Assembly: GCA_023634235.1 (NCBI GenBank)
Contig: JAMKCF010000007.1
Span: 2,046,001 to 2,110,000 of the forward strand
DNA from: Pisaster brevispinus
Lineage: Eukaryota; Echinodermata; Asteroidea; Forcipulatida; Asteriidae
DNA: 64,000 nucleotides
Direction: 5' to 3'
The notes under the pieces were generated by a model. That model ran no database searches and was not told the DNA's origin. It worked only from the letters and a program-made list of their open reading frames with translations. The stretch's first letter is position 1, and every line of letters starts with the position of its first letter. Both the position numbers and the translations under genes were made by a program. This document shows positions 17,001-53,221 of this stretch, piece after piece.

Positions 17001-20000
17001 AAGCACATGCAGATACCGTGCTTGTCACATGTTGGTGTACGGGTATTAAACAAAATGATATATTGGCCTACGGTTTTTTTCGACCATTGTGACAAATTTC
17101 ATATTGCGCTTTTTTGCTGAATTGTGTTAAATCACTCTGATTTAGAATTGCTCTGTTCGGTGAATTTCTCTATTGAACAAATTGTGTAGGTTTAATAGGC
17201 CTTTAACAGTAGTGCAGGGCCCTTAGGTTAATTACCTTTCCTAAATTACAACCAATCTGTGAAGAGTTGCTCAAAATCAGTGGTCAGATTTAGTTAAACA
17301 TACGTAATATGGGTTTTATATACGTTCTTAAATTAGTTGGCTTGCAATGTATTGATGGCCGCAATTTGACAGATTCTTGGTTAATTGTTCGCTGCATTTC
17401 GAGGCGAAAATGTTTCTTTGCTGGGGAATAAATAACGAAAACAATGTAGACTTATTTTCCACACTGTTCCAGAAAACCGAGCAAGGCACTGAATACACAA
17501 AGAAACAAACAATAAACAAAATGAATAAACACATGGATTGGATGGAATCTCTGTAAATCTATGGCCTACATTTTACAGCTGTTTACTTGGCACGCTCTTC
17601 AAAACGACCATTCAACCCTGCTTCGATTATGCCTGTTCTGTTTGGGAAAATTGTTCCACGAAAGGGCACTTCTCAGACTGCGGAAAACAGCTGCGTGGGT
17701 TGTCTCAAACAATTTCGATTATATAAACTTTCATGTTGAATACATTATCAATCAATTATCTTGGCAGACCTTAGAACAAAGAAGGGACTTTTATTTAGCC
17801 TGTATATTTTATAAAAGTGTTCACGGACCTTGCTCCAAGTCGAATATTATATAGTGACGTAGAAATGTACTTCGATAGGAATAGTATTAATACAAGAAAT
17901 GCAGACTCTCTAAATGTTGATGTCTCTAAACACAACGTTGAGTGTTTTAAACAATCTTTTAAGTTTGCCGGTGCTCAATTTTGGAAAAATATTCCTTCTT
18001 CCACAGAAAATTCCTCCTCCATTGACATTTTAAAATGTTTATATAAGAACCTGTACCTTAAGTAGTTTGACTAGCATTTGCAGTTGTAGATTTTTTCTAT
18101 TTATTTTATGTATTTGTGTTAAACAGGACATTGATGTAAAACAGCTTTCACTGGTTTTTTTTATCCCGTATAATGATGTTGCAATAAATAAATAAACAAA
18201 TTATAACTGCTACTTAAAATGTGTTTTTGAAGCGCGAGCTTCAGAACTAGGAATCTCATCCCTGGGGTGTTCTATTATAAATACTGTATTTTGTCACTAA
18301 AAAATAAATCAACAATTCCGTTTGTTTCTCCCCGTCCAACCCTCTGTCTTATCCCTTATTCAACCCAGTACTGTCTCGTCGGTTCTGAATGCTGTAGCGG
18401 CCGTGGTGGGCGAAAACCTCATCAAACCTTTCTGGAAAATGAAGGACTCGACGTATACAAACCTCCTCAAGATTATCGGTAGGTAGATTTCTGGAATGAA
18501 CTTATCTCCAGATTATTCCCTACGACTGTTTTGTCTGGAGTGTTCTAGATAGAACAATACATATCAGTCTACCAACGTGACAACAACATATACCAATGGG
18601 CACGGTGCTTGAGGCTATAATTATGCAAGACTTTGCGAAACAACTTTCCTGTTCAACTCCGCCAATCTACTTAAGTTCATGGCTTCAAGAAAAAACTAAC
18701 ATGAAATTAATGGGTTATTTCACCAGGTTGGGACACCCGGTGTGACATTTATCCATATCATTAAAAGCATTCTCTTACATGTGACATAATTATTTCATGC
18801 AAAAAAACAAGTTAGTGGCCTGCTGTTTCGACCCTAGCAGAGTGTTTTTCGAAGGCTACCCCCCAAAAAACAAAAACAAAACAAAAACACACATTTGTGT
18901 TAGCCTTCGAGAAAGACTCTGTTAGGGTCGAACTTTTTCTTGCATTTTAATCGTAGGTCCTTTTGGTTGGTAAGCAGTTTGCAACAGCTTACTCTATTTT
19001 CTCACATTATTTTATGTTACATGCACCCTTGTTGATAAAATTGTTCGTTGAAATTTTAAATTTGTTGAAACATATTTGAACAAAAATGTGATCAAAATTA
19101 CATTTAAAAGTAACATTGACATATCGTGTCATTGTTACATATGTTTTTTTTCTTTTTCTTTTTTAACACTCAACTACATACTTATGCAAACTCACTTTGT
19201 CTGCTAATTACATGACACACTAATCACCCAGATTAAACTTATGGATTGGTAGTCAGTGATTCAATACACCAGAAATGGCAAGACTGAAAAGAAGAACAAG
19301 AAGAAAAAGAAGAAGAAGAAGAAGGAGAAGAAGAAGAGTGCAGATGTAAAAAAGGCGCCAAAATATGTCACAGGACACAGTGCCTCTGTTACATCTAATA
19401 ATAGTAAGGACAACTATAACACACGACGTCCCAACTTGGTTCAATGGCGCAACTCTTTATATCCGTTTAGAGTTTTGTAATTATTACTTTACTATTTTTT
19501 ATATATATATATAAGGCATTTTGGATTGAAAGTTAAGCCCACTTTCTATGCATTTTGTTTTGTAAATAATTTACTGTTAGAGCTTATGTGTGCAGAGTAG
19601 GTAATACACACGTCTGCTCCGTCCTTGAGATTACACGACCCCGCAATTTGGGTCAATGACCACAGTTTCAATGACCCCCCCCCCTGAAAAAAATCGATCT
19701 TTTTTTGAGGCGAAACATACCTCAAACTTCGGTTTCTCTCAATTCGATAGATCTCAAGTGTGCTACATCAATTAAGTTACTCGGTGTGACTGTTCAAGAC
19801 AACTTAAAATGGGACATACACATTGCGGAAATTATTTCTAAGGCAACCCGTAGGTTGTACACTTTGTGCGTACTACGTAAATCTAAAGTACCACCAACAG
19901 ACATGGTGGCAGTCTATACTTGTTATATTAGACCTATACTGGAATATGCTAGTCAAGTTTGGCACAGTTCCATTACTGAGCGACAGGCCATTGCTGTTGA

Positions 20001-23000
20001 ACATGTTCAGAAGCGTGCCGTTCGCATTATCCTTGGCCATCAGTATTACTCCTATACCATGGCACTTGAATTACTAGGTATCTCATCACTCAAGACTAGA
20101 AGAGAAGATCTTTTGATGAAGTTTGGTATTAACTTACTAAGATCCACTTAATTTAGGAACATTTAGGAAAGGGCGAAAGCAGTAATGTGCAAAATTGTGT
20201 TTCAAGACGAATGAGTGTGAAAGTTTAATCGGCTTTCTGCCATTCATTAGTCACCATATGAAGGTTAAATTCTGCATGAGAATGGGAACATTCTCTTTGA
20301 GGACAATGAAGTGACCAGTTTAGTTCTTGCATGAAACCGGATGGAAGCCAAAAGGTTTCACTGAACCTCAAATAGCGCGCGAGACTTCTAGGTTTGTATT
20401 GTTAGTGATATTGGAAACAATCAAAACCCTATTGTCTTGTAATTGACATTTTATATTCATTGTTTGTGCTTCACTGTTGTTTTTTGTTGTTGTTTGTTTT
20501 CCTATCCAGTGATAGTGTCATCCTTTCTGACGATCGGAACGTCATTTCTAATCCCAGTTATCGGTGATGCCTTACCGGTAAGATTTGATCATATTTAACT
20601 TTTTAAAGAAATTATAAGGACTACAAATAAAAGCCTGGTTGGGTTGGTGCATGTAGATGGATGTTGTGAATTAATGTTGTAATGCAGTACAATGTGATAT
20701 TAGAACTCTATTACATTAGCACAATAAGAGCATTTGGCTCAAAAATGTGCTGAAGTTATGTTTTTGTTATGAATATACTACTACTACTACTACTACTAAC
20801 GTAAATATTACGCGCCGGTATCCATCACAGAAGATGCTCATAGCGTAGTGTTATGTTTTAAAAACAGAATTGATAAAATACATAAAAACAGTTTATACAC
20901 CCCGATTGGCTGGGAGGATATCACGACGTGGTCATGTTTAAACGTGCGATCAACCGTGCTAACAATATTGAGTCAATTAAAGAGGGCACAATCATTATGA
21001 TTGCGTGGAGCACTCAAATTTCACGGCCCATTTTGGGGTTGGAGTGCCAAGAGCGCATATTCGGATCGCGCAAGTTTAAAACCTATGCGCGATAGTTTGA
21101 AACCTAAGCGCGCAAGTTTGACACTTGCGCAAGGAGCTACTAATAGTGCCAAACACACACACAAACAACACCCAACGTTAAGTCGCGGTGAGCTGAGGCT
21201 TAACTGTCAGATTATTATCTTTTTACTTTTGAGTTTTTATAAATGTTTTTAACTGGAGGTGTTTATGAATGGGAATAAAAGACATTTATAAGAGGAATAA
21301 TCTGACCTCGTGTCCCCTCTTTTGTTCCCCTAATAGTCATTATACACCCCACTTGCACACTGCAGGGCGTAACAATACCATATTTTTATGGCCATCAATG
21401 GCTGAGCTCCATGCAGTGTAACGATTTGTATTCTCCATCGGAGATCAATAATAAAGGCCAATCAATTCAACGCTTTGCAGACAAGATGTCAGTAATCCTC
21501 AGTTGTGCCCAATCAGATTAATTGTTACATCATCTTGTCTGAAAAGGTTCACAGTCGATGATGTCGTAACATGCCCAGCGTGCTCCGAACTAAACTTCCC
21601 CATGTCAACCAATGCTAAACGCTAACGTTAACACATAATACAAAATAGGCCCATATTAATTGGTCATCCAGTCTATTGAAAACAAACCAAATATATATTT
21701 GGATATCTAAACTTCAGTTTTCTTTTCAATTCAAATCAAGACTAGTTGAAGCCCGAACATCTGACGTCACACTTCGAAGCTCGTGAATAACGCCAGATAC
21801 CAGCCAGACCGGATGTTGCAAGATGTACCTTTGACATATCATTCATTTCGCACGGAGACTCGCAGTCAATTCACATGTACATGTTCACATTACATAGTGA
21901 ATAAAACAACACTACATGATGTACACAACAATATGCACACGCTGCGTGCATGCAGTCGATCGAAAGTGCAAGCTGACAAACTAAATCACCTCGTAACCTC
22001 GACCAATCATAACACAGATATAGAATTCTTACGTCACAGCACGTTTGTCCAAATAAATTATTATGTCCAATGAAATCATTGGGCCTCAAGACCAGTACCT
22101 GTCTTTATCCTTGCGGATAAATACAGGGGACATGTCTAGACTAGTTTTAGCCTGAACATCTGACGTCGCACTTCGAGGCTCGTGAATAACGCCAAATACC
22201 AGCCTTGAGCACCTGGCGGGATCTTGCCAGATGTACCTTTGACCTCGCATTCATTTCACATTGCGATTCGCAGTCAACTCACACATGTACATGTGCACAT
22301 ATTAAATAGTGATTAAAACAACATTACATGCATGTATGTACAAATATTATACATGTATGCACCCACAGCATGAAGACGATCGAAAGTGCAAGCGGATAAG
22401 TACAGGGGACCAGTCTAGACTAATTGTTACACTGATTTGGCCGTGTCCGAAACGGCGACTTCGGCTACAGCTACAGCTAGATCAGCGCGTCTGCCAGTGT
22501 TGAAGAATAGGCAGACGCGCACGATCTAGCCGTAGCTGTAGCCGAAGTCGCCGTTTCGGACACGGCCTAAGTTTCTGCCCGTGTGGAGCGTAGAGTCACT
22601 CTTTATCTTCCCCCAAACTATTTACCGGACTGTGACAAACTTCAAAAACAAAGTGCGCGAATCTCTTTAACTGGTGTTTGACCAGAATTATGTAGTTACA
22701 TTAAACAATGAACTACCAGGAAGTGTCATTGGCGATTACGCCCAAATTTAATGACCATAAATAATTATTTTCTGAGAAGCACTGCAACTGTTTATAGTCA
22801 AACTATTTTGAGAAAGGATTCCCTTTTAAAGATGGTTTGGATAAAATAAATGTTCACCCAAACCATTCATATCTGAGAAACGATTTATGCGGGTTGGTGT
22901 CCGTTCGCGAAGGCTGAAGTCAGAATATGCAGCTGGTACCCGCGTCACCCCTCGCTAAACGTGAACTGATTCGGCGTTCTTTTGAAACCACCGTGACAGA

Positions 23001-28223: not shown

Positions 28224-29189
28224 CACAAGTAAGTGAGCGGGAACCCAAAGCCTTGATGTGTAATAATTTGTTTTGAGATACGGTGACAAAAGCTGTGAGA
28301 AAAAAAAAAGACAAACAAGGGTACATTCCAACAGTTGAACCACATCAATTGATGCAATATCTTTCAACTTGAAAATACATGAACAATTTTCCAGTTGAAC
28401 AATTCACCTTAGTGTGTAGCGAATCTACAGTTAAGTGTAGATTCGTAAAAATAAGCTACAATGTCATCAAAAGAGTGACGTCACAGAAATAGTTTGACTG
28501 GAATCATTACATAGTCTATGGCTTTTGAGGGGAAGGTTAAGGCAGACATTATTAACTTCCCTTACGTGTAGATTCGTGGCTATACATTGTACTCGCCTTC
28601 ACACAAAAAACGGTGGCAGGCTTGAAGTGTGTATTTTAGCTAAACATGCAGAAAGAGGTGTGTATATCAGATTAAAACGCATCGTATGTTGATCATCTGA
28701 CTTACCCCTGTGTGTTTTTTTAATTTTTGGTGCTAAAGAAGTACCGTTCAAGCAGCGAGTGTGTCAGTGTTAATTTGTCAAGTGCGTCAAAAAAGTTGCA
28801 TTAGCGTAGTAAAATATCTCATAACCTGGTAGTGTGTGTAACTTCACTCATCGCGCGTAATGCCTCTTAGAACGCAAGAAGAGTATGACACTAATTCACT
28901 TTTCTGTCTGAGTACTTGAATGCATAATGGTAGTAAGTCCGACGCACTTGCAATGTATGATAACGCACGCCCATTGTGTAAATTTTTCTTACCTACCAAT
29001 TGTGTCAGACTTATGCACTTGAGTTGTTAAATGATTCACGCCTAGGTTTAGCATGGTTAAGCTGAGTAGGTTGACGATGGAAGTGCGTCAAGACTATTCC
29101 CGCGAAAATTTCACGTGGTCTTGCATGGACGGAAGCGGTATGTTTTGTACGTGCGGACGCGCGAAAATCACACACTCATACTGCATACT

Positions 29190-29260
29190 TCTTTCAGACG
29201 TTGTTGGTCAGAGCAGCAGCTAGCGCCCCCCCCCCCCCAGCCTGCGACTGTCAATCATTC
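29190..29260 (+). other. Possible 5' untranslated exon of the middle gene pair
   Basis: A consensus donor (gtaagt) starts at 29261 after caatcattc, and acceptors lie at 30159 (ttgttgcag) and 32766 (ctggctgcag), the latter 8 bp before the second gene's ATG. The exon's own start is not visible. Inference only. Confidence 0.35.
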
Positions 29261-30237
29261 GTAAGTATTGGTTTATTTAGTTCTCTCTCTGTCCATATTA
29301 AGTTTTCAACTTCTGTCGTTATTTAGCGTACAAGTTTTGCTGCTTCTCAACATGCTCAATTAGGCCTAGAATTTGTTTTTCTCTCATGATCGCATGACTG
29401 TGATGTGATCATGATGAACATAGTTGTTGCGTTGGTCTTTGTGGTTTGTTCTGATGAGTAGGCTAGTATTGTAATCATGTATTACCATTATGCTTCAGAT
29501 ATTGATCAAGAACACCATAATATTATTGTCATTATTCGAAGCACTTATATTTGCACTCTGTTACACTATGGAGAAACTCATGATGTCGAGTATCCAACAT
29601 TACTGGTCTCCGTTAGTGTTTAGAGTTAGAAGAGTCTTGGCATAACGGGACGATTCTCCCAGCCGGGCCTTTCATTGGCATTGGTAAGGGGAACGTTTCC
29701 ATTCAGTCTGTAATATTAACATCTGAAAGTAAAAAACAACTTGTGTGTAAAATAACACAGTGGATGGGTCACATACATCATCAGGGTTAATGACTGTTTT
29801 GTCGGTCAAAGGTCTCACGATTGTAATACATTTTATAGGCACACGCGCTTGTGTAGCCATATGCAGTGCACATAGTCTACAGTATGCTGTCACTGTGTAC
29901 ATCCACTCAAAGAGATTTAAGCACTTCCCATAACATTATGTTCTGTTATTATGCGTTTGCAGAGAGGCAACCACACTTTCAAAAGTCAATCAGATTTGCG
30001 TTTAATTTGATGAGGGAAATTACATCAATTTTGTAGGCCTATAATTATAGTGAAAGGTAAGCAATGAAAATTTTCCCTAAAACATTGAAACGAATATGTG
30101 AAATGTTTCTTTACTTTTTTTTTGTTTTCATAGCCTGATATAATTCTCATTTGTTGCAGATTTCACATCGGTTCATTGCACCATCAGTTCTTGTGCTTGT
30201 CACTCTTCTTCAGTGTGTCAGGTTTAATTATTTTACA

Positions 30238-32694
30238 ATGTCTCAATCGGTTGGCACTGTCTATAATTGTGGCATTTGTCGTATTTATGAGGCACCAACA
30301 TTTCAAAAGCTGCTCAGACATGTAAGGCTTGTTCATAGTAACGAACCCCATTTCTCCGTAAGATGTGGCCTTGGTGGATGTGAAAAAATATACAAGGTAT
30401 TTTCTTCCTATTTAACTCATCTTCGGCGACATCATGCCGAAAGTGTTAACCCACATTCACAAACAAGTATTACAGAAAATGATCAGACAAGAGAAAATAA
30501 CAATGAAGAAAATGTCACAGAGGATAACATAGACACCGGAGAATCCAATGATGATCCTGACAAGCAAGCCACTTTCAAAAAAGCCTTCGCCCTCCACATT
30601 CTTAAGATTAGGGAATTGCACAAACTCCCGAAGAAATCCATTAACCTTTTGAGTACAGAGATATTTGATTTGTTGGAAATGCAGCAAGAACACTTAGTTT
30701 CCAAATTTTGTGAAATAGTATCGAGTTGTGCAGGTGGTAACACACCATTTGGAAAGTGTGCGATTCCAGAGGTTGTTCATACAACATTACAGACAATTAA
30801 ACCCCTACTAACAGATGCAAATCACCATGCCTTTCTGAAGAGCCATGTTGGGTTGATTGAATCAATAACTTATGAACTTGGTCACAATTCAAATGGAAAG
30901 CCCAAAACATATCAGTATGTTCCAGTGTTACAAACATTGTCCAAGCTGCTAGAACACCCAGACATTATAAGCCAAGTTCTTAATGGCAGATCCAATGAAC
31001 ATGATGGACACCTCCATGACTTCTGTGATGGTATTTTGTTCAAGGAAAATCCTTTGTATTCTTCCCAGCAGTATGCCCTACAGGTTCAACTATATAATGA
31101 TGACTTTCAGGTGACAAATCCGTTAGGAAGTAAAGCGGTTAAGATTTCTGCCTTTTACTACTTGTTGGGCAACATTCATCCTAAGTTCAGGTCTAAGTTG
31201 TATGTTATTCAGTTGGCAATACTTGCAGAATCCAAATACATCAAAAATAACCTTGGCCAAGTGCTCAGACCACTTATAGAGGATCTGAAACAACTGGAAC
31301 AGGAAGGAATCTCGGTCAGAGTTGATGGCAACACAGTTAATATCAGGGGGACCATAAGTTTTGTCTCGGCTGATAATCTTGGAAGTCATTTCATTGGAAG
31401 TTTTTTTGAGAGTTTTACAACAGAACGATTCTGTCGTTTTTGTATGTGCACCAGACGAGATCTAAAAAGTGGAAAGTGTTTGACAACAACCGCAGAAGAA
31501 CGAACGATTGGCATATATGATCGTCATGTTTCTCTTGTCTCTGCTCATAGTTCTTTCGCATCAGTGTATGGTGTTCATGGAACTCCATCTCCTCTGAATG
31601 AGTTGGCATACTTTCATGTCACAGAAGGCCTTCCCCCAGATGTTGCCCATGATTTAATGGAAGGTGTATGCAAACAAGTAATGACAAAAATCCTTCCAGG
31701 TATTCAGGTGTATGTCACTGACATTAACTCAGTTCTGGAGTCCTTTCCATATAAAGGCTCAGACAAATCTACAAAACCCTCACCACTGTCAATATCTGGC
31801 TCAAACATTCGCATAAAACAAAGTGCCTGTCAGATGTGGTGCTTTTGCAGACTCTGTCCAGTCATGTTTGCTGCAAAAATTCCTCCCAGAGAACCTCTGT
31901 GGAATGTGTTACTCTTACTTGTGGACATAATTGAAATTGCTACTTCCCCTGTTCAAACTGCAATGAGCATTTCCTTCTTGAAATCTGTCATTGCAGAATT
32001 CCTTCAAGAATTTATCAACTTATTTGGTGCTGACTCCTTGACCCCAAAGTTTCACTTTCTTCAGCATTACCCAGATATGATGGCAAAGTATGGACCACTT
32101 ATCCATTGCTGGACGATGAGGTTTGAGGCAAAACACAGCTATTTCAAGGAAATTGCCAGACGCACAAAAAATATGAGAAATATCTGCAAAACACTCTCTA
32201 CCAGGCATCAATACTTGCAGTGCTTCTACAACTCAAGTGTAAATTTCTTGGAACATGACAACCTCGAATTCACTCGCCTTTCCACTATTTATGTGTCATT
32301 GCTCCAACCACAGGTACAGGGTATTGTGAGAAATATTGTTCCCTTTGACAATATTGACACTGATGTGAACATTGTCAACCAGGCCGAGTCTGTAACTGTA
32401 AGTGGTGTGAGGTATGATAAAGGATCAGCAGTAGTTCTTGGGACAGATGGTGGTTTGTGCCAGTTTGGCAAAATTGACATCATTCTTGTTCATGCAGGAA
32501 CCGTAAACTTCATTGCAATGGAATTGCACACATCAAATTTCAGTAGGCATCATCATTCTTATGTTGTCAGTGAAACAAACAAGTATGTTCCAGTCAAAGT
32601 CAGTGACCTCCTGGATTTTTATCCCCTTGAAATATACAGTCTTGCAAATATAAACTACATTCCCCTGAAACATCGTGTACACATGGAAATGTAA
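30238..32694 (+). CDS. Zinc-finger plus transposase-like protein, 818 aa, single coding exon
   Basis: ATG chosen at 30238 (MSQSVGTVYNCGIC); the frame is open farther upstream but has no earlier ATG, and an acceptor ends at 30159. Residues about 11-64 form two C2H2-type fingers (CGIC...HVRLVH and CGLGGC...HLRRHH), then an acidic, Asn-rich linker. The core carries LPPDVAHDLMEGV (Asp468 in D-x-x-H-D) and, near residue 630, LIHCWTMRFEAKHSYFK, flanked by TPKFHFLQHYPDMM. This D...E arrangement resembles uncharacterised animal proteins and the CACTA/Plavaka transposase pattern D-V-M-H-x-x-E; class assignment is inference. No frame break in 2.4 kb. The end lies 80 bp before the next gene with no AATAAA between, so the two may share a transcript. 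Alternative: a domesticated nuclear regulator. Confidence 0.75.
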   Translation: MSQSVGTVYNCGICRIYEAPTFQKLLRHVRLVHSNEPHFSVRCGLGGCEKIYKVFSSYLTHLRRHHAESVNPHSQTSITENDQTRENNNEENVTEDNIDTGESNDDPDKQATFKKAFALHILKIRELHKLPKKSINLLSTEIFDLLEMQQEHLVSKFCEIVSSCAGGNTPFGKCAIPEVVHTTLQTIKPLLTDANHHAFLKSHVGLIESITYELGHNSNGKPKTYQYVPVLQTLSKLLEHPDIISQVLNGRSNEHDGHLHDFCDGILFKENPLYSSQQYALQVQLYNDDFQVTNPLGSKAVKISAFYYLLGNIHPKFRSKLYVIQLAILAESKYIKNNLGQVLRPLIEDLKQLEQEGISVRVDGNTVNIRGTISFVSADNLGSHFIGSFFESFTTERFCRFCMCTRRDLKSGKCLTTTAEERTIGIYDRHVSLVSAHSSFASVYGVHGTPSPLNELAYFHVTEGLPPDVAHDLMEGVCKQVMTKILPGIQVYVTDINSVLESFPYKGSDKSTKPSPLSISGSNIRIKQSACQMWCFCRLCPVMFAAKIPPREPLWNVLLLLVDIIEIATSPVQTAMSISFLKSVIAEFLQEFINLFGADSLTPKFHFLQHYPDMMAKYGPLIHCWTMRFEAKHSYFKEIARRTKNMRNICKTLSTRHQYLQCFYNSSVNFLEHDNLEFTRLSTIYVSLLQPQVQGIVRNIVPFDNIDTDVNIVNQAESVTVSGVRYDKGSAVVLGTDGGLCQFGKIDIILVHAGTVNFIAMELHTSNFSRHHHSYVVSETNKYVPVKVSDLLDFYPLEIYSLANINYIPLKHRVHMEM

Positions 32695-32774
32695 AAGTGT
32701 GCAAACGATGAGCAACAGAATTTTAATTTGGGCATTGCTTTTTGTTTTGCTTTTATCTGGCTGCAGTTCCCACT

Positions 32775-33154
32775 ATGGAGTACCTTGTAACATGTGGCAT
32801 GTCAAGGAAGGTTGTTATTGCTGCAGACAACTCTGAGCTTGAAGCTAGAATTAGAGAAGCTTTTGAGATTCCTGAGAAAAACAAAATTACCTTACAAGTC
32901 TACATCCAGAAATGGGGGGAGTACATTGACACCAGAGCACAAGATGTTGAGAGTAATGCCAAAATCAATGTTATCAATTTTGAGAGTGACTTTCCTCTAA
33001 TAATACCAGGCAGCTCAGAGTCTAGCTTTGACTCAGTGAGTATCCCTTCCTTCGCATCTACGAGTCAGATTTTTTCTGACAGTGAGAGTGACATAGTCTC
33101 AGACTGTGTCTCATCAGAACAGCAGAACTTCAGTGTTCCAGTTCCAGATATGAG
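32775..33154 (+). CDS. SAMD3-like gene, exon 1
   Basis: Starts MEYLVTCGMSRKVVIAADNS, 8 nt after a ctgcag acceptor, so an upstream untranslated exon is likely. The second half is Ser/Asp rich. Phase 2 at donor gtaagt. Confidence 0.8.
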
Positions 33155-36100
33155 GTAAGTGTAAGGTGTATTGATGAATCCCTCTAACTTGATCTTTGTA
33201 CAGGTAATATCAACAAAAAATAAACAACTTGCTATAATAGGGCTTGTGATGTTTTCCTACAGTAAGTCACTTGTTACAGTTGGCGCACAGAATTGGCCAT
33301 CACCATTCAAGCTCCCTTGGCAGTGCTTCCCCCCAGACCTTAAGATGGCCTTGGCAGATAAGAAGCAACTTGACATCAGACAACAAAAGAAGCTGGTGCA
33401 AGCTGTTTTCGACGAGATGAGGAAAGTTACTTGGTGAGAGTGCTTTAATTCAATTCATTATATATTCCCTTGCAAACTTTATTCCTGGGGTGAAATAACA
33501 ACAAATGAACACCTGCAACATTTCTCCTTTTATTTTCCATAAATCTTTTCCACAGGACACCGCACCCCTGGCAATACGATGAAGCAGCTCGTGCTATCAC
33601 GGAAACCTACCCACATCTTGCTGACAAGACACCACTCTGCAAGCCTCATGTGAGTATTTCTAATCAAACATACCGGTAGGAAGACTATTATCAAAATGAT
33701 GCAATGTGTCATTTACACAATCAAATTAAGCTTGGTTTTATTGAAGATGGAGGGTTAGCAATAAGTAATCAACTGAAAATTCCCCATGCTAAAATATGTA
33801 GCAATATGATGTTTCATATATGATCTTAACTGCAGTTTTCCATATTCAAATAATTTGAGCTGGAAGCTAATCATACCATTTTAAACCAAATCATCACGAA
33901 GTTTAGTTTCTGGCTGTAAAAGAAATCAATCTATTGAAAAATAAGTTCAGAATAAATCAAAATTGTCACCTTCAATTGAACCTCTCTTAAATGTTGATTA
34001 TCTTTTTCATAAAATTGAAAGGACATATGGAAAGGTCGACTTTCTGATAAGTTCAGAAATGAGAGGAAGAGGAAAAGGACTGAAGATGAAGTTTCCAGTC
34101 CTGAAACGGTCACTCCAAAGCGACAGCGATCAATCACTCAATCAAGCACCTCGCAGCTTCCAGAAGGAGAGGACGCTGTATCAATGGAGAGGCACATCAG
34201 GTTATTATCTTTAGTATAATTGTGTTACAAATGTTTGAAATGTTATACTTCTTGATTTGATTTTTGTCTTTAGTACGCCTTATTTATTTCCAATTTCCAC
34301 TGAATACTATCTCATCGCTGAAGCCACAATTGTATCTAGAGATAGCGCCAAAATCGTTTGTAAAATTGATCCACTCATAGGAGTCAATTCACTGGTCACA
34401 GATGAATTTTGGCGAATCAGATGGCTCTTGTGTTTGCAGCATGCTTAAGCTGCAACCACTTGGTCCATATACTATTAAGTTAATTATTTTATAAAACTTA
34501 CATTTCATGTAATTATAACAGAGTTGTAACAAGTTATTGATTTCTGCACCTCAAGTCGAGTTGAGTCGAGTCACAAAAATTAACTCAAGCCGGACTCGAG
34601 TCGTCATTGACTCAAGTCATTACAACTCTGAATTTTAATAACATGCTATTATCTTTTCTCTTCCAATTTTAATTTATTTTGTTTGATGAAGTGCACTCTG
34701 CGAAGAACACAAAAAGCGGCAGCAGGATGAGAAGAAAATCAACCAACTTATGGATCTAACCTTTCCACTAAGAAGGCAAACCATCCTCAAGAAGGCACTG
34801 GTGGTCGACATCAAAGCACAATATCCTGTGCTTTTCACCACAAAACAGGTTAATTTAAAAGACTTCTCTCCCTAAGCAAATTTGTGAATTTCAAAGCAAA
34901 CAAGCATTGTTTATTGCTGGATTGTTATCGTTTAGTTCAATTAAGTTGTGACACATTTTTGCCTTAAAGGACACAATCAGAGCAATCCTTTGTAAACAGC
35001 TGAACGGTCTGTTGCCCACTTCACAACAAAAAAGTAGATTCTTTGTAATTTTGACATATTCTTTTTACAAATTTTATTTCAGATCTTTCTTGAGTTGGGC
35101 AGAATGATACCATCACTTAAGTCTTTCGATGCTAACATCTGCATCAAGGGAATGTCACCATATGTGTCAGCAATTATAAACTACCCTTTTTACAAGAAGG
35201 CTGATGCAAGCTTCCTTCGGCTGATCCAGACAAAGATATCTTCTTCTGAAACAGACAACGAGAAGGAATGTAAGCATTTTTTTGTTGCCCACAGTTAGTT
35301 AACTAAGATACACTTCAACCACAGTTGGACAGTTCATGGCAGGAGCACTTCAGCAATTTTTTTAATTGGGGCGTGCCCAAGCACTCCCATGCAAATACAT
35401 AAATTGATGTTCTGTTCCTGTTAGTTAAAATTGCCAGACTGCAACGAGAGTGTATTTTCATGACAAATGCTAATGTGTCATGTAAGCACTAAAGATAAAG
35501 AGTGAATTTCGGATTGAGCAAGACAAGCCAGTGCAGGTCACACAACCTACTTTCAGTATTTAGAAGGCAGTTGGGGCCTTTGGCCATTGAAACAAGAATT
35601 ACTTTGGAGGATGATTTGCAAGCCTGAATACATTTAACAGAGTGGTGACTATTGCTTGGTCTGATGGGGTTCCATTCCTCCATGGTGCTTAATTTTAGCT
35701 GATCAAGCTGATATTCATCCAAGTGAGGTACAAATTATGAATCGTGGGCATTATACTAAGGAACCAATTATAATTGTTTTTCCCTGCAGATTTAAAGACT
35801 GCTGGTGCAATACTACTGCTGCCATCATTTTTTGTTGGAGAAAACAGAACTCTCCTTATCACTGACCAAAAGGTAGGTTTCTCTTGTTCGTATTAGCTGT
35901 GTGTGTGCACATAAGTGATCAATAAGACTGATATGAAATGTATGACATTTTCAAAGCATCCCATAAAATTTCACTTTGAAATTGCTGTTTATCAAATGCA
36001 CCAGGAGATTGATATGATTATTGCCAATTATGGTTAATTATGGTTAATTATTATGTGGAGTGCTGTGGCTTAGTGGTTTCAGGGCATAGGATTTGTGGTC

Positions 36101-36779
36101 TGCGGGTAAAGCTGCAGGTTGTAGGTTCGAGTCCATCCTGGGGTCATGGTGTAAGTGCCCTTTGGTAAGCACTTTGTCATGCAATGCCTCTTCCACAAGG
36201 TTTATAAATGGGGGCAGTGAGAGCAGAGATGGTTGTTGTGATCGAATCTAGCTTCCTTTGGCCTACAGGCAGCATCAAGCTGTTATACTCCCCAGCAAGC
36301 TGAGATTTTTGAATGTTTCATTGGCCCAATGAGCAGGGGTAATAACAATGTAGTGCCTTGAGTAGCAGTTCTGGTCGACACCAGCTGTATTAATTGCATT
36401 ATTATTATGATATTGATAAGATGAAAACAGAATCGTTTGGTGTATGCTGAGAGAACTCCTTTTCCTTTCCATTTTTTTTTAGGATGAGTCTACTGTTCAG
36501 CCACACCTACAATACCTAGGGCAACAGAATGACCTCATGTCCATGACGGACAGCTATGCTGTGTATGCAGAGCAACAGGAGCTCTTCATAGTAACAGGGA
36601 TTATTGATGCCCTGTTAGCTTTGCTGGCCACATATTTTATCTTTGATATGTCGTACCCAAAAGGTATTAGAAACACCCTAACATTCCTGCAGTTGAATCT
36701 GTTGAAGATGACGCAAGGGGCAAAACCCCCAAAACCAGTGAGCAGAGTAATCAACCTCCTCAGGAAGGGCGATAGTTAA
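32775..36779 (+). CDS. SAMD3-like / ubiquitin-like-fold accessory protein, 8 exons, 515 aa
   Basis: Exons 32775-33154, 33263-33433, 33556-33649, 34022-34200, 34692-34848, 35083-35269, 35790-35872 and 36483-36779 total 1548 nt, and all phases agree. The N-terminus (about residues 1-65, charged, ending TRAQDVESNAKINVI) looks ubiquitin-like/PB1-like by pattern. An acidic Ser-rich linker follows, then WPSPFKLPWQCFPPDLKMAL, LVQAVFDEMRKVTWTPHPWQ, a basic segment DKFRNERKRKRTEDE (likely nuclear), INQLMDLTFPLRRQTILKKA and a C-terminal YPKGIRNTLTFLQ block. This order matches animal proteins automatically named sterile alpha motif domain-containing protein 3-like; I see no SAM domain itself. Function unknown; next to a transposase-like gene, an accessory DNA-binding role is the inference. 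Confidence 0.78.
33263..33433 (+). CDS. SAMD3-like gene, exon 2
   Basis: Encodes the signature WPSPFKLPWQCFPPD and a Lys-rich helix DKKQLDIRQQKKLVQAVFDE. Acceptor cctacag, donor gtgaga. Confidence 0.85.
33556..33649 (+). CDS. SAMD3-like gene, exon 3
   Basis: Encodes TPHPWQYDEAARAITETYPH then LADKTPLCKPH, corresponding to the family helix that ends ...YPxLAD. Donor gtgagt. Confidence 0.85.
34022..34200 (+). CDS. SAMD3-like gene, exon 4 (basic segment)
   Basis: DIWKGRLSDKFRNERKRKR then a Ser/Thr-rich stretch. A TGA lies just before the chosen acceptor (ttgaaag), so the exon cannot start earlier in this frame. Phase 0 in, phase 2 out. Confidence 0.75.
34548..34630. repeat. CTCGAGTC/CTCAAGTC minisatellite in intron 4
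   Basis: Short degenerate octamer repeats (caagtcgagttgagtcgagt). The same motif family appears at 61490-61565 and 61965-62065. Confidence 0.7.
34692..34848 (+). CDS. SAMD3-like gene, exon 5
   Basis: Encodes ALCEEHKKRQQDEKKINQLM and DLTFPLRRQTILKKALVVD, matching the family block E-L-x-x-P-x-R-R. Phase 2 in, phase 0 out. Confidence 0.85.
35083..35269 (+). CDS. SAMD3-like gene, exon 6
   Basis: Begins IFLELGRMIPSLKSFDANIC. Acceptor atttcag, donor gtaagc, ends in phase 1. Confidence 0.83.
35490..35745 (-). repeat. Possible dispersed repeat in intron 6
   Basis: The minus strand carries an open frame of 77 codons without recognised domain. The segment looks like an inserted repeat by composition, but no second copy was seen in this window. 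Confidence 0.25.
35790..35872 (+). CDS. SAMD3-like gene, exon 7
   Basis: Encodes YLKTAGAILLLPSFFVGENR then TLLITDQK; the A-x-x-x-L-P-x-F/L-x-x-E pattern is shared by this protein family. Acceptor ccctgcag, donor gtaggt. Confidence 0.83.
36050..36425 (+). repeat. tRNA-derived SINE in intron 7 of the SAMD3-like gene
   Basis: A-box-like gctgtggcttagtggtttca and B box ggttcgagtcc about 60 bp downstream, then a SINE body ending in a run of attattattatga. Same strand as the host gene. Confidence 0.7.
36483..36779 (+). CDS. SAMD3-like gene, exon 8 and stop
   Basis: After a T-rich tract and ag, encodes DESTVQPHLQYLGQQNDLMS, then FDMSYPKGIRNTLTFLQLNL and a basic end INLLRKGDS, TAA at 36777-36779. 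Confidence 0.85.
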   Translation, partial: DESTVQPHLQYLGQQNDLMSMTDSYAVYAEQQELFIVTGIIDALLALLATYFIFDMSYPKGIRNTLTFLQLNLLKMTQGAKPPKPVSRVINLLRKGDS

Positions 36780-37004
36780 ATTGACTCTCATTTCATCATG
36801 AGGACAAACGAAGTCAGCTGCTAATTTTTGTTTAAATTTATATTTAATTTTTTTCTTTTAGTTTTGGTTGTTTAGTAAAGTTTCTCAGATACATTTTGCT
36901 CAAAGAAGAAAGTACTTTCATGAACAGTTAGTCAACAACTTTGAACACACTAAATGTGGAGGGTGATCTACAGAATTCAGACAACAGTTGTTTTTGTAGA
37001 CTTG

Positions 37005-37830
37005 CCTGCTACTACTCTTTGTCAGCAACACTGGGTAATTTGTTGTTAATCTGACTATGATTAATCATTTGGGGGAATAAAACCTGTCAGAGAAAGGCCC
37101 AAAAATAAAGGCAAAAAAAAAAGAAAAAGGAAAACAACTTTTGGAACAATTTTACGTTTTAAAAGAAAAATTTAATATTTCATGTTTGTGTTATTCAAAG
37201 AGTGCCAGAAACACGGCATTATTCGTTTCTAAGTGGGAGAAAAACTTAAAAGAAAAATATAATTCTCTCTGTCAGCAACACTCGGTTATTTGTTGGTTAA
37301 TCCGCTTATCACAAATTTTGGGGGCAAAACCTGACCGAGGAAGGCCCCTACTTGTAACAATTGTACTTTTTGTAAGAAGAAGTTATTATTAATTTGTGTT
37401 TTTCAAAGAGGTTAGGAACACACCATGATTCAGAGTGGGAGAAAACCTTAAAAGAAAATTTTAACTATCTCCGTCAGCTAGACTCTGTTATTTGTTGGTT
37501 AATCTGTTTAAATGAAAAAAAAAAAAAAAAAAAAAAAAACCACCTTTGGAACAATTGTACTTTTTATAAGAAAAAGTTAATATTTCATGTTTGTGTTATT
37601 CAAAGAGTGCCAGGAACACAGCATTATTCATTTCTAAGTGGGAGAAAAACTTAAAAGAAAAATATAATTCTCTCTGGTCAGCAACACAAGGTTATTTGTT
37701 GGTTAATCCGCTTATCACAATTTTGGGGACAAAACCTGACCGAGGAAGGCCCCTACTTGTAACAATTGTACTTTTTGTAAGGAGAAATTATTATTTTATG
37801 TTTGTTTTATTTATATAGTGTGTCAGGAGC
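37005..37830 (+). repeat. Degenerate tandem array, unit about 205 bp
   Basis: Blocks gtgttattcaaagagtgcca, aagtgggagaaaaacttaaa, ttatttgttggttaatc and cttgtaacaattgtactttt recur about every 205 bp (3 to 4 copies), interrupted by poly-A at 37516-37540. Lies between the SAMD3-like stop and the candidate right transposon end. Confidence 0.85.
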
Positions 37831-38049
37831 ACATGTAATTCTTAAGGAAGAGAAAATATATTAATTCGTTTTATTATTTGTAGTTTGTATTATTATTATT
37901 TTTTGGACCACGAAAGTAGCAGTTTCAAACATGTTTAATTGTTGTTGTTTTTTATGATAAAATAAACGTACACAGAAGTGTGTCAAGCTTGGATGACGTT
38001 AAACAACTATGACTCATTTTGTGTGTCCTTCGGATGTCAGGTTTACATT

Positions 38050-38446
38050 TTTCCTAATTTTTTTTATTTACTCGTCGAGTGGGTCACCATGGTATTTAAA
38101 CTATAAATGAGTTTAATTCCTCATCTCTGAGTCATTTTTTAATTACTCATTAAGTGAGTCCAACATTTTTTTGATTCACCGGATGAGTAAATTTCAAGTG
38201 AGTATCTCTGCAGATTACTCATTTGGTGTGGCGTTCTGAAGTCAAATCGTTTTACTGGTCATAATGGGTATTCGAACATAATATCTTTTTGGTGCATCGT
38301 TATACTTGAGTAACTTTACGCGTTTAAATGAGTATAGCAATTGATAACGCATTTGTTAAGAGTGTCATCTGTGAGTCAACTATACTCGGAATTCATGTGT
38401 CTTATTACTCAGAATATTTTTTGTGTGTTCAGCTTGTACATTCTAT
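38050..38446. repeat. Subterminal array of ACTCA/TGAGT motifs
   Basis: Many short motifs in both orientations within 400 bp: ttactcgtcgagtggg, aattactcattaagtgagtc, ggatgagtaaattt, gattactcatttgg, cttgagtaac, aaatgagtat, tgtgagtcaact, ttattactcagaa. Confidence 0.65.
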
Positions 38447-38886
38447 CCACGAATCTACACATTCTCATTCATTCTCATTATTAACACGGCTGAGAATACG
38501 ACACCAAAACTCTTCCCATTAATTTAGCATCTATGCAAACAATATGAACTAAAACCTTTAAGTTTTCTACGTATTACTTTTTTCCTTTTTCTTAGCTCCA
38601 GAAGAGCTCTAAAATTGCTGCCTTGTCAATAATAAAAACACCATTTTCAAACTATTTTCTCAAAGACGACAACATTGAGAGTTTTTGTTTCGATTTTGTT
38701 ATTATTGATGTCAAGTTGATGATGTTGATGTTGTTGTTGTTTTCAAGGACGTGTATCACTCGATGAAATGAAGTTTTTTTTGTCTATGAAAGGCTGCTAA
38801 CTTCGCATACGAAGAACCCTGCTTGGACGATTTTCAGGGTCTTACAGATGACAGTAAAGTTAGTTTGATATTGGAAACTGGACATG

Positions 38887-39042
38887 CACATAGGTTTGTA
38901 CAGCGAATATCAATGTTGCTTTTTTGATATTCGCTGTACAAACCTATGTGAATGTCCAATGTCCATTTGTATTGGACATTCACATACTAGGTTTGTACAG
39001 CGAATATCAATGTTGCTTTTTTGATACTCGCTGTACAAACCT
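38887..39042. repeat. Cluster of three consecutive hairpins
   Basis: Hairpin 1: 38887-38912 pairs perfectly with 38925-38950 (26 bp arms, 12-nt loop). Hairpin 2: tgtgaatgtccaat (38947-38960) with attggacattcaca (38971-38984). Hairpin 3: from 38989, nearly the same sequence as hairpin 1 and the same loop, ending 39042. An outer pair (gtttgatattgga near 38860, tccaatatcaaac near 39060) encloses all three. Confidence 0.9.
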
Positions 39043-39586
39043 ATGCGAATGTCCAACGTCCAATATCAAACTTAAATTTACTGTCGTGTCTTACAGTCGC
39101 ATTGTCATTTTGTCGAACTTTTGTAAAATGTTCATAATTATGTACTTTGGGTTTGAATGCAATAAATGGTTGGTGTTAATATTGTGATGTAAGTTTAGTT
39201 TCTGCCAATTGGGTGCAAATATTATGTATTTATATATTGGGCAGAAATTTGTGCGTTAAGTTTTCCCCTTGTGAATATTGTACAGTCCACCAATTTTTGC
39301 AAGATTTATTGCACTATCCATGCTAAATATGAAATGGGATGCGATCAAATGACCCGCCTTGGTTACCAAGTGATCTTTACGACAAAACCAGCAATTAATA
39401 TTCATACGTCATATTTATACGTCATTGAATGTTCAGTTTGATTGGCTGAATGTTACCCTATTTGCCTTATTTATGAGTTGGCCATGTTGTGTCTTATTCC
39501 CAGAATTCAAAGGGTTTGTAAGCATTAAGCCCTCACCACAGGTCACCAGGCTATTTTGTCTCTATTGGTCAACGTATACATTTGGT

Positions 39587-52150: not shown

Positions 52151-52953
52151 ATGAGTTCCCTAACAACGGTAGCTTCTTACAACAACTATTCTTTCAACGA
52201 GACTTACTGGGAAGAGCCCGTAGATGCCTATGAGGCAGTAGCTATGGGTTTTCTGGTCCTCTTTGGACTCGTTGGGGTAGTGGGAAACGGAACACTCGTC
52301 TGCATTGTCCTCTTCAACCCCGACATGAGGTCAGTGCCGAACATCTTGATAGCGAGCCTCGGACTTGGAGATTTCTTCGTGGTCATAACGTCAGTGCCAG
52401 TCACCTTCGTTTCGTATCTGTACAGCGAATACCCTTTTGGTGTCGCCATGTGTAAGTTCGGCAACGTGGTGCCGATAATCTCGCACGGGGTCTCGGTGTT
52501 CACACTCGCTGCCCTCAGCTACGACCGGTACACGGCCATCGTCCGCCCCATGCAAAGGAGACAGTCCAATGCCGTGGTTCGGACATACATCGTCTCGGTT
52601 GTCATCTGGTGCCTCTCAATCATCCTTGGGACTCCCACAGCCGTCTTTGCTCGGTTGGAAATTTACGAATACGAAGGAGTCAGCGCGGCTATTTGTCTAC
52701 CCTATCCGGTTGGCTCAGTGGAAGCTAAAGTCCACGAAGTCTTACGGTGCTTCATAATGTTTGTTGGACCACTTGCCATTATTAGTTGTTACTACCTGTT
52801 GATAGCGGCGCAGTTGTACCAGAGCTCCAGGGCGATTCCCTGCGAGGGCCATGGGGACTCTAGACAGCTGAGAGCCCGTCGCAGACTCGCCAGGACTGTG
52901 CTGGTCCTCGTGGTTATATTTGCTATCTGTTGGATACCTCATTTTATTTACAG
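52151..52953 (+). CDS. Class A peptide GPCR, bombesin-receptor-like, first coding exon (TM1-TM6; gene partial)
   Basis: The 267 codons from MSSLTTVASYNNYSFNETYW end at a strong donor (gtgagt at 52954) in phase 2. Visible: N-terminal sequons NYS and NET; TM1 with VGNGTLVCIVLF; TM2 with ASLGLGD (Asp2.50); TM3 from a conserved Cys (AMCKFGN) to SYDRYTAIVRPM (DRY motif); TM4 with Trp (VVIWCLS); an ECL2 Cys (AICLPYP); TM5 VGPLAIISCYYLLIA; TM6 RTVLVLVVIFAICWIPH (CWxP). The third loop (LYQSSRAIPCEG...RRRLARTVLVLV) and the exon end after TM6 fit bombesin/GRP/neuromedin B receptors, whose genes also split between TM6 and TM7. CCHamide- or endothelin-type receptors are the nearest alternatives. TM7 (NPxxY) was not found downstream to 64000. 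Confidence 0.85.
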
Positions 52954-53221
52954 GTGAGTTTGAAACATTTTAATTCGCTTGTTTTTTATGCACTTTAAAA
53001 GACCCCTTAAAAATGTTCAAAATGTAACGCAAGTCAATGGTGTATTAACGTTACAAGTTGTCACATATCCTGCGCACCGCAAACGCGCCGACTCTTCACA
53101 CATGCAATGCTGTGAAAATTGTGTTCTCACCTGAGAACGAGTTCAAAGCACCCTGAAAGGAATATCTGAACGATGCCATTTGTTGTTACTTGACAGTTGA
53201 AATTAAAAAAACCTGGCTACA

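Follow-up and report, generated by a model that had tools for sequence, protein, structure and literature searches.

Transposition relying on two proteins has been described for the Spm element of maize, and DUF4218 accompanies tnp2 in plant CACTA elements. The two Spm proteins are TNPD and TNPA: a passage of PMC1636069 reports that the former interacts with the latter and stabilizes its binding to DNA. Plant CACTA elements duplicate 3 bp of their target, according to an excerpt of PMC4158355. Animal relatives include the TRC elements (SmTRC1 of Schistosoma, and those of Aedes and Tribolium), which, in the portions of PMC1636069 dealing with them, are related to Transposase_21, generate 2-bp duplications and have ends starting with CCC; for an animal CACTA relative, the same portions indicate an apparent lack of conservation of the protein outside Transposase_21. 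The locus described here is a real two-gene DNA transposon of Pisaster brevispinus, located at positions 28600-38427 (+ strand, 9828 bp) of a window of 64,000 nucleotides from contig JAMKCF010000007.1. With a probability of about four in five, it is a potentially autonomous, CACTA-like (EnSpm-type) cut-and-paste transposon, in which gene 1 encodes the transposase and gene 2 a TNPA-like accessory protein. An original prediction, made from the letters of the window, had proposed a DNA transposon with two genes, organized according to a CACTA-like logic; recurrent pairing of the two genes and termini shared with other copies bear this out. All positions refer to the window, and numbers preceded by "C" indicate contigs of the same assembly (550 Mb, 512 contigs), which is also the genome searched.

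The bounds of the element were obtained from its other genomic copies. The DNA of its left end has two further matches in the genome, each starting at 28600 and not at 28566: a 5' fragment (C2:28853493), and a deletion copy, approximately 369 bp long (C16:1282158-1282526), which features both ends, the left one being joined to the right one. The right edge of the deletion copy falls at 38427 or 38428, blurred by a GT run, and fits a TG duplication. The element, delimited in this way, has termini CACACAAAAAA...TTTTTTGTGTG, corresponding to terminal inverted repeats at 28600-28610 (+ strand) and 38417-38427 (- strand, given here in + strand reading). A TT is present on either side, as target-site duplication, at 28598-28599 and 38428-38429; uninterrupted copies of the flanking sequence, such as L064 and L065, contain a single TT. 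Five insertions, for which both flanks could be read, fit 2-bp duplications: TT, TG (ambiguous, because of the GT run), AA, TA and AA.

The termini had first been placed at two inverted sequences, 28566-28579 and 38447-38460. These do exist, with 14 bases in agreement followed by partial agreement; they are, however, parts of the two halves of an older palindromic repeat (28566-28599 and 38430-38460, both + strand), and were rejected as ends of the element, since nine genomic copies cross the junction uninterrupted. A similarity search of the genome with the joined flanks, from which the element had been removed, led to 13 places, two of which belong to the window. Among the 11 remaining ones, nine pass through the junction and represent empty sites (on C3, C16, C9, C1, C4, C11, C28, C17 and at C25:5845098); two, at C25:6267575 and on C12, do not. 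An exact-pattern search of the genome for the uninterrupted palindrome gave no match, the diverged copies being found by the similarity search only. As the flanking inverted sequences are halves of an older repeat, filled and empty sites together demonstrate the insertion. The same comparison bears on the idea that no transposon is present, and that two host genes lie by chance between inverted repeat copies. In favor of this idea, the inverted sequences reported initially are indeed part of a repeat unrelated to the element; yet the true ends, their duplications and the near-identical, dispersed sister copies described below speak against it, and empty sites and the deletion copy oppose it decisively, so that its probability is minimal. 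Another copy of the GTGTAGATTCGT repeat, degraded and recognized by eye, lies shortly upstream of the insertion, at 28434-28446.

The overall plan of the element recurs in two sister families, characterized by CACTC or CACTG ends, 2-bp duplications, subterminal repeats and the presence of both genes. In one of these families, three dispersed copies (on C5, C1 and C8) share 98.9-99.2% identity across the 5.4 kb compared; two of them, on C5 and C1, are complete, 11,015 bp each and 99% identical, have ends CACTCTAAAAATATATTAGTCAATTT within a 26-bp inverted repeat, and are flanked by duplications AA and TA. In the other family, the copies located on C11, C12 and C7 reach 99.2-99.4% identity. The one on C12 is 9857 bp long, has ends CACTGTAAAAAATTACC and an AA duplication, and is the only copy of its group with both ends read; for the one on C11 the left end alone was read. 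Short inverted repeats starting with CAC, typical of CACTA/EnSpm elements, are therefore found in three families (CACACAAAAAA, CACTCTAAAAATATATTAGTCAATTT, CACTGTAAAAAATTACC). The expectation that other copies would share the termini holds for the corrected ones (C16 and C2), and not for those initially proposed. When near-identical copies are compared codon by codon, four pairs feature 2-5 synonymous and 1-4 other changes, too few to prove selection.

Short motifs were also expected close to the ends. At the right end of the window copy (37928-38427), TGAGTAA is found five times in the last 500 bp, counted over both strands, and never in the interior; none of 200 shuffles, the number used for all motif and gene 2 profile scores, reaches five. 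At the left end, the top motif count is matched by 120 to 125 of the 200 shuffles, meaning that no motif stands out: the expectation is thus supported on the right side only. In the sister families, the two terminal 500-bp stretches contain 13 TGACTAA against none inside, and 15 ACCGTAA against one inside, values again reached by 0 of 200 shuffles. A repeat search of the two short end regions of the element, each taken separately, found none; in its 3' part, a 211-bp unit is present in 3.3 tandem copies (37141-37811, + strand).

Gene 1 (30238-32694, + strand) is a single open reading frame of 818 codons, predicted to encode a CACTA-type DDE transposase with N-terminal C2H2 zinc fingers. Its relatives, collected as genome matches at E <= 0.001, are at least 60, with identities ranging from 100% to 27%. 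Two alignments were used: A1, including nine lineages end to end, and A2, wider, with 35 rows. Eight A1 lineages share 26-37% identity with the window protein. The two fingers that had been noticed are confirmed at residues 11-33 and 43-66 (30268-30435, + strand): all nine A1 lineages retain H28, H33, C43, C48, H61 and H66, which make up the complete second finger and both histidines of the first, and the A2 profile matches the fingers of GLI, TFIIIA and YY1. Three acidic residues are candidates for a catalytic role, all encoded on the + strand: D288 (YNDDFQVTNPLG, 31099-31101), conserved in 35 of 35 A2 rows; D379 (SADNLG, 31372-31374), in 34 of 35; and E630 (31 of 31 rows carrying a letter, four having gaps; 32125-32127), which lies within the RFEAKH motif, already indicated by the original prediction and present in the 818-residue frame. 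D379 is followed by C399-x2-C402, with both cysteines in 35 of 35 A2 rows. The motif D-x-x-H-D, described as conserved, is found at residues 468-472, but its D is not invariant, being replaced by C in three of the 35 family members. Forty database proteins are related to gene 1; they are mostly unnamed, and the named ones are from starfish, sea cucumbers, sea urchin, mussels and blowfly.

Gene 2 relatives were sought across the genome with three gene 2 queries. After merging, 52 gene 2 and 60 gene 1 loci were counted, window included, and partners were accepted within 10 kb. In 28 of the 52 gene 2 loci, compared with 0.03 expected by chance, a gene 1 precedes gene 2 in the same orientation; gene 2 lies upstream of gene 1 in two loci, and on the opposite strand in none. 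The two families, whose adjacency elsewhere had been put forward as a check, are therefore recurrent neighbors across the same genome. Further comparisons add to this number. Four more pairs feature a gene 2 of the type found on C97 (one on C97, one on C15 and two on C2); of the 12 places matched in that comparison, four others have no listed gene 1 relative within 10 kb. By profile comparison, a gene 2 was recognized behind gene 1 in lineages L020 (E 5e-7; 27.5 bits) and L021 (E 3.7e-12; 58.7 bits), with scores reached by 0 of 200 shuffles in either case. The distribution of gene 1 is uneven: contig C1, with 34 of the 550 Mb, carries 29 of the 60 loci, well above its share of the genome.

Gene 2 is also on the + strand, as initially proposed, but is not uninterrupted: it is split into eight exons, separated by GT-AG introns, spanning 32775-36779 and encoding 515 residues. 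Exon 1 (32775-33154) encodes the N-terminal domain; exons 2 to 7 are located at 33263-33433, 33556-33649, 34022-34200, 34692-34848, 35083-35269 and 35790-35872; exon 8 (36483-36779) contains the conserved C-terminal block and ends with the stop codon. Spliced alignment of P0041, an unnamed protein of Patiria miniata (87% identical, 100% query coverage), reproduces these introns. The start codon is uncertain, because the P0041 model begins further upstream. Searches of the protein database scored the candidates sharing most words, 7994 for the single query and 7996 for the gene 2 alignment; the latter again found the Patiria protein alone, and with this number of candidates the absence of further relatives says little. 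Window gene 2 matches no Pfam family, a difference from the CACTA/EnSpm elements of plants, and the gene 2 profile has one match in PDB, at chance level. Intron 7 hosts, at 36056-36400, a sequence that by eye resembles a SINE (short interspersed element) derived from a transfer RNA (tRNA); no tRNA gene is called in the window.

The first domain of gene 2, as judged from its sequence, differs by lineage: it is weakly SAM-like in three of them, and CIDE-N in another. For the first exons of the copies on C11, C12 (10.7 Mb) and C33, SAM_TNK is the best Pfam match (E 6.7e-4, 9.6e-3 and 6.8e-5, respectively). The C97 gene 2 contains a CIDE-N domain, with a Pfam E of 5.4e-19 and a DREP2 match at 6.4e-11. 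The domain spans two exons, which were joined in the analysis, the join fitting GT and AG; the copy on C15 has the same exons in unchanged order. CIDE-N is known from DREP2, CIDE and DFF40; in the C97 and C15 lineage, differently from these proteins, it is encoded behind a transposase. A passage of PMC7642931 reports that, in the genome of Hydra viridissima, CIDE-N is over-represented together with transposase domains; this excess may be due to CIDE-N genes carried by transposons, such as that of C97. The window copy scores CIDE-N at E 0.21 and has no SAM match; the weak matches of its type of N-terminal domain are to the small vasohibin-binding protein, the best at 0.038.

SAM and CIDE-N domains self-associate, and a mechanism may be outlined by analogy with maize Spm. 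The zinc fingers of the gene 1 protein would recognize the ends of the element, while cleavage next to CACAC and insertion into a 2-bp target would be carried out by a DDE center, formed by the candidates D288, D379 and E630. A role of gene 1 in cutting and joining is proposed because of its anatomy, the conserved acidic residues and homologies below threshold. The gene 2 protein would be a dedicated accessory factor, inherited along with gene 1 and acting like maize TNPA: its variable N-terminus, SAM-like or CIDE-N in sister lineages, may self-associate, while its conserved C-terminal core may bind either the subterminal repeats or the transposase, so uniting the two ends. Gene 2 would, in other words, organize the ends through self-association. 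The two-gene logic of TNPD and TNPA is recognizable in the position of a second protein beside the transposase, both in the window and in the sister lineages.

A number of observations weigh against this reading, some concerning the class of the element, others the association and the nature of gene 2. As to the class, none of the three families starts with exactly CACTA, the ends being CACAC, CACTC and CACTG, and just one full-length copy of the window family was found in the assembly. The window gene 1 protein has no transposase match in Pfam, Plavaka (PF18759) included. When members of its family are considered, with matches listed at E up to 1, Transposase_21 is found in 16 of 35 (best 1.6e-5, 24.7 bits against a cut-off of 28.6), Plavaka in nine (best 1.9e-5) and DUF4218 in six (best 1.4e-4): all these matches are below the Pfam curated cut-offs.

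These data are relevant to a different origin, from a DDE lineage close to CACTA but distinct from it, Plavaka or yet another, which would have converged on CAC ends and 2-bp duplications. The departure of the ends from CACTA is in line with such an origin, as are the best scores of Plavaka and Transposase_21, which are about equal; Transposase_21, on the other hand, is matched by more members, DUF4218 is also matched, and duplications of 2 bp agree with those of animal CACTA relatives, as presented in part of PMC1636069. On balance, we regard this origin as unlikely. Similarity to Transposase_21 and DUF4218, although below threshold, is also what links the gene 1 family to plant CACTA/EnSpm elements, along with the presence of two genes, inverted repeats starting with CAC, short duplications and subterminal repeats. 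The element differs from them in its ends and in the length of its duplication, CACTA...TAGTG termini and 3-bp duplications being absent. It resembles the animal TRC elements for the sub-threshold relation to Transposase_21, the 2-bp duplications and the animal host, while the CCC starts ascribed to TRC in the relevant part of PMC1636069 are unlike those of the three families described here. The element probably belongs to an animal branch of the CACTA superfamily; membership is probable rather than proven, because strict CACTA ends are absent and the transposase domain scores below threshold.

As to the association of the two genes, 24 of the 52 gene 2 loci have no gene 1 partner by the counting rule. 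Two of them, on C3 and C5, are counted as such though located beside a gene 1, because of merging or of a 10.07 kb gap. The remaining 22 (18 consisting of a single match, four not) might represent fragments, isolated copies or genes of the host. One gene 2 relative, at C1:20776718-20778110 (+ strand), features two stop-free open frames and no listed gene 1 relative within 15 kb, and may be either a host gene derived by capture or an isolated copy. Conversely, 32 of the 60 gene 1 loci lack a gene 2 in the count, several of which are supplied with one by the further comparisons reported above. Lone gene 1 loci would be expected if gene 1 were the sole protein of transposition and gene 2 were cargo, acquired from a host on a single occasion by an ancestral element and having a role directed at the host, for example against silencing. 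The multi-exon, host-like organization of gene 2 and the variation of its N-terminal domain among lineages also agree with a cargo gene. Several of the unpartnered gene 1 loci, however, are fragments or contain stops (e.g. C1:12341857, C80:384584, C133:66429), and gene 2 is located after gene 1 also in lineages that have diverged deeply (26-37% gene 1 identity to the window), some of which were missed by the count. Such a long co-inheritance argues for a role of gene 2 in the cycle of the element itself, and makes a mere cargo improbable.

Points of the same kind concern the nature of gene 2, here considered as the accessory gene of the element. None of the SAM_TNK matches attains the cut-off, and a profile built from the SAM-like first exons of the three lineages finds no SAM structure in PDB. 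Profile comparison of the window-type N-terminal domain with the CIDE-N and SAM-like domains gave no match: for lack of such support, the domain is not called CIDE-N. The core of the C97 gene 2 is only weakly similar to the other gene 2 proteins (E 0.0039, probability 8.6; in a second comparison, 6.2 bits and E 0.14, the best of the reported shuffles being 2.5), and this gene is taken as a gene 2 because of its position and layout. The label "SAMD3-like", originally given to the gene 2 protein, was not obtained from this analysis, and the absence of a SAM match sets window gene 2 apart from SAMD3. The C-terminal block, and the SAM-like first exon of the sister lineages, may resemble SAMD3.

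What is new, in comparison with the systems described, is a second gene, conserved across diverged lineages downstream of the transposase, whose first domain changes. In the listed titles and abstract openings of a mostly open-access literature, Repbase being outside the search, no published link was found between CACTA elements, or transposons in general, and SAMD3, SAM or CIDE-N domains, or a second protein acting as partner of a C2H2 one. Judging from this arrangement, transposon parts may be hidden among the unnamed animal genes of the gene 2 kind. If gene 2 does correspond to TNPA in animals, a group of such genes would be accounted for in this way, self-associating domains would gain a testable role in transposition, and a vertebrate gene might have a transposon origin. 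A broader proposal, tentative and in our opinion rather doubtful, is that gene 2 represents an ancient, SAMD3-like family carried by animal CACTA-like transposons, that its interchangeable N-terminal self-association domains (SAM-like, CIDE-N and another) build a filament-like synaptic complex on the subterminal repeats, and that vertebrate SAMD3 and many unnamed invertebrate genes are host-captured, or still mobile, copies of it.

Other features of the window lie outside the element. An open frame of 155 residues at 19684-20151 looks by eye like the end of a reverse transcriptase from a retrotransposon lacking long terminal repeats (non-LTR); its sole Pfam match at E <= 0.001 is ALKBH8_N (2.8e-5). 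Short repeats near 38.9 kb (38870-39060) match microRNA precursors of Rfam on both strands, with scores below the gathering ones, and these matches are probably hairpin artefacts, due to a hairpin-forming repeat. Finally, a frame encoding a G-protein-coupled receptor of the rhodopsin family (7tm_1, 2.3e-45) is located at 52151-52957.

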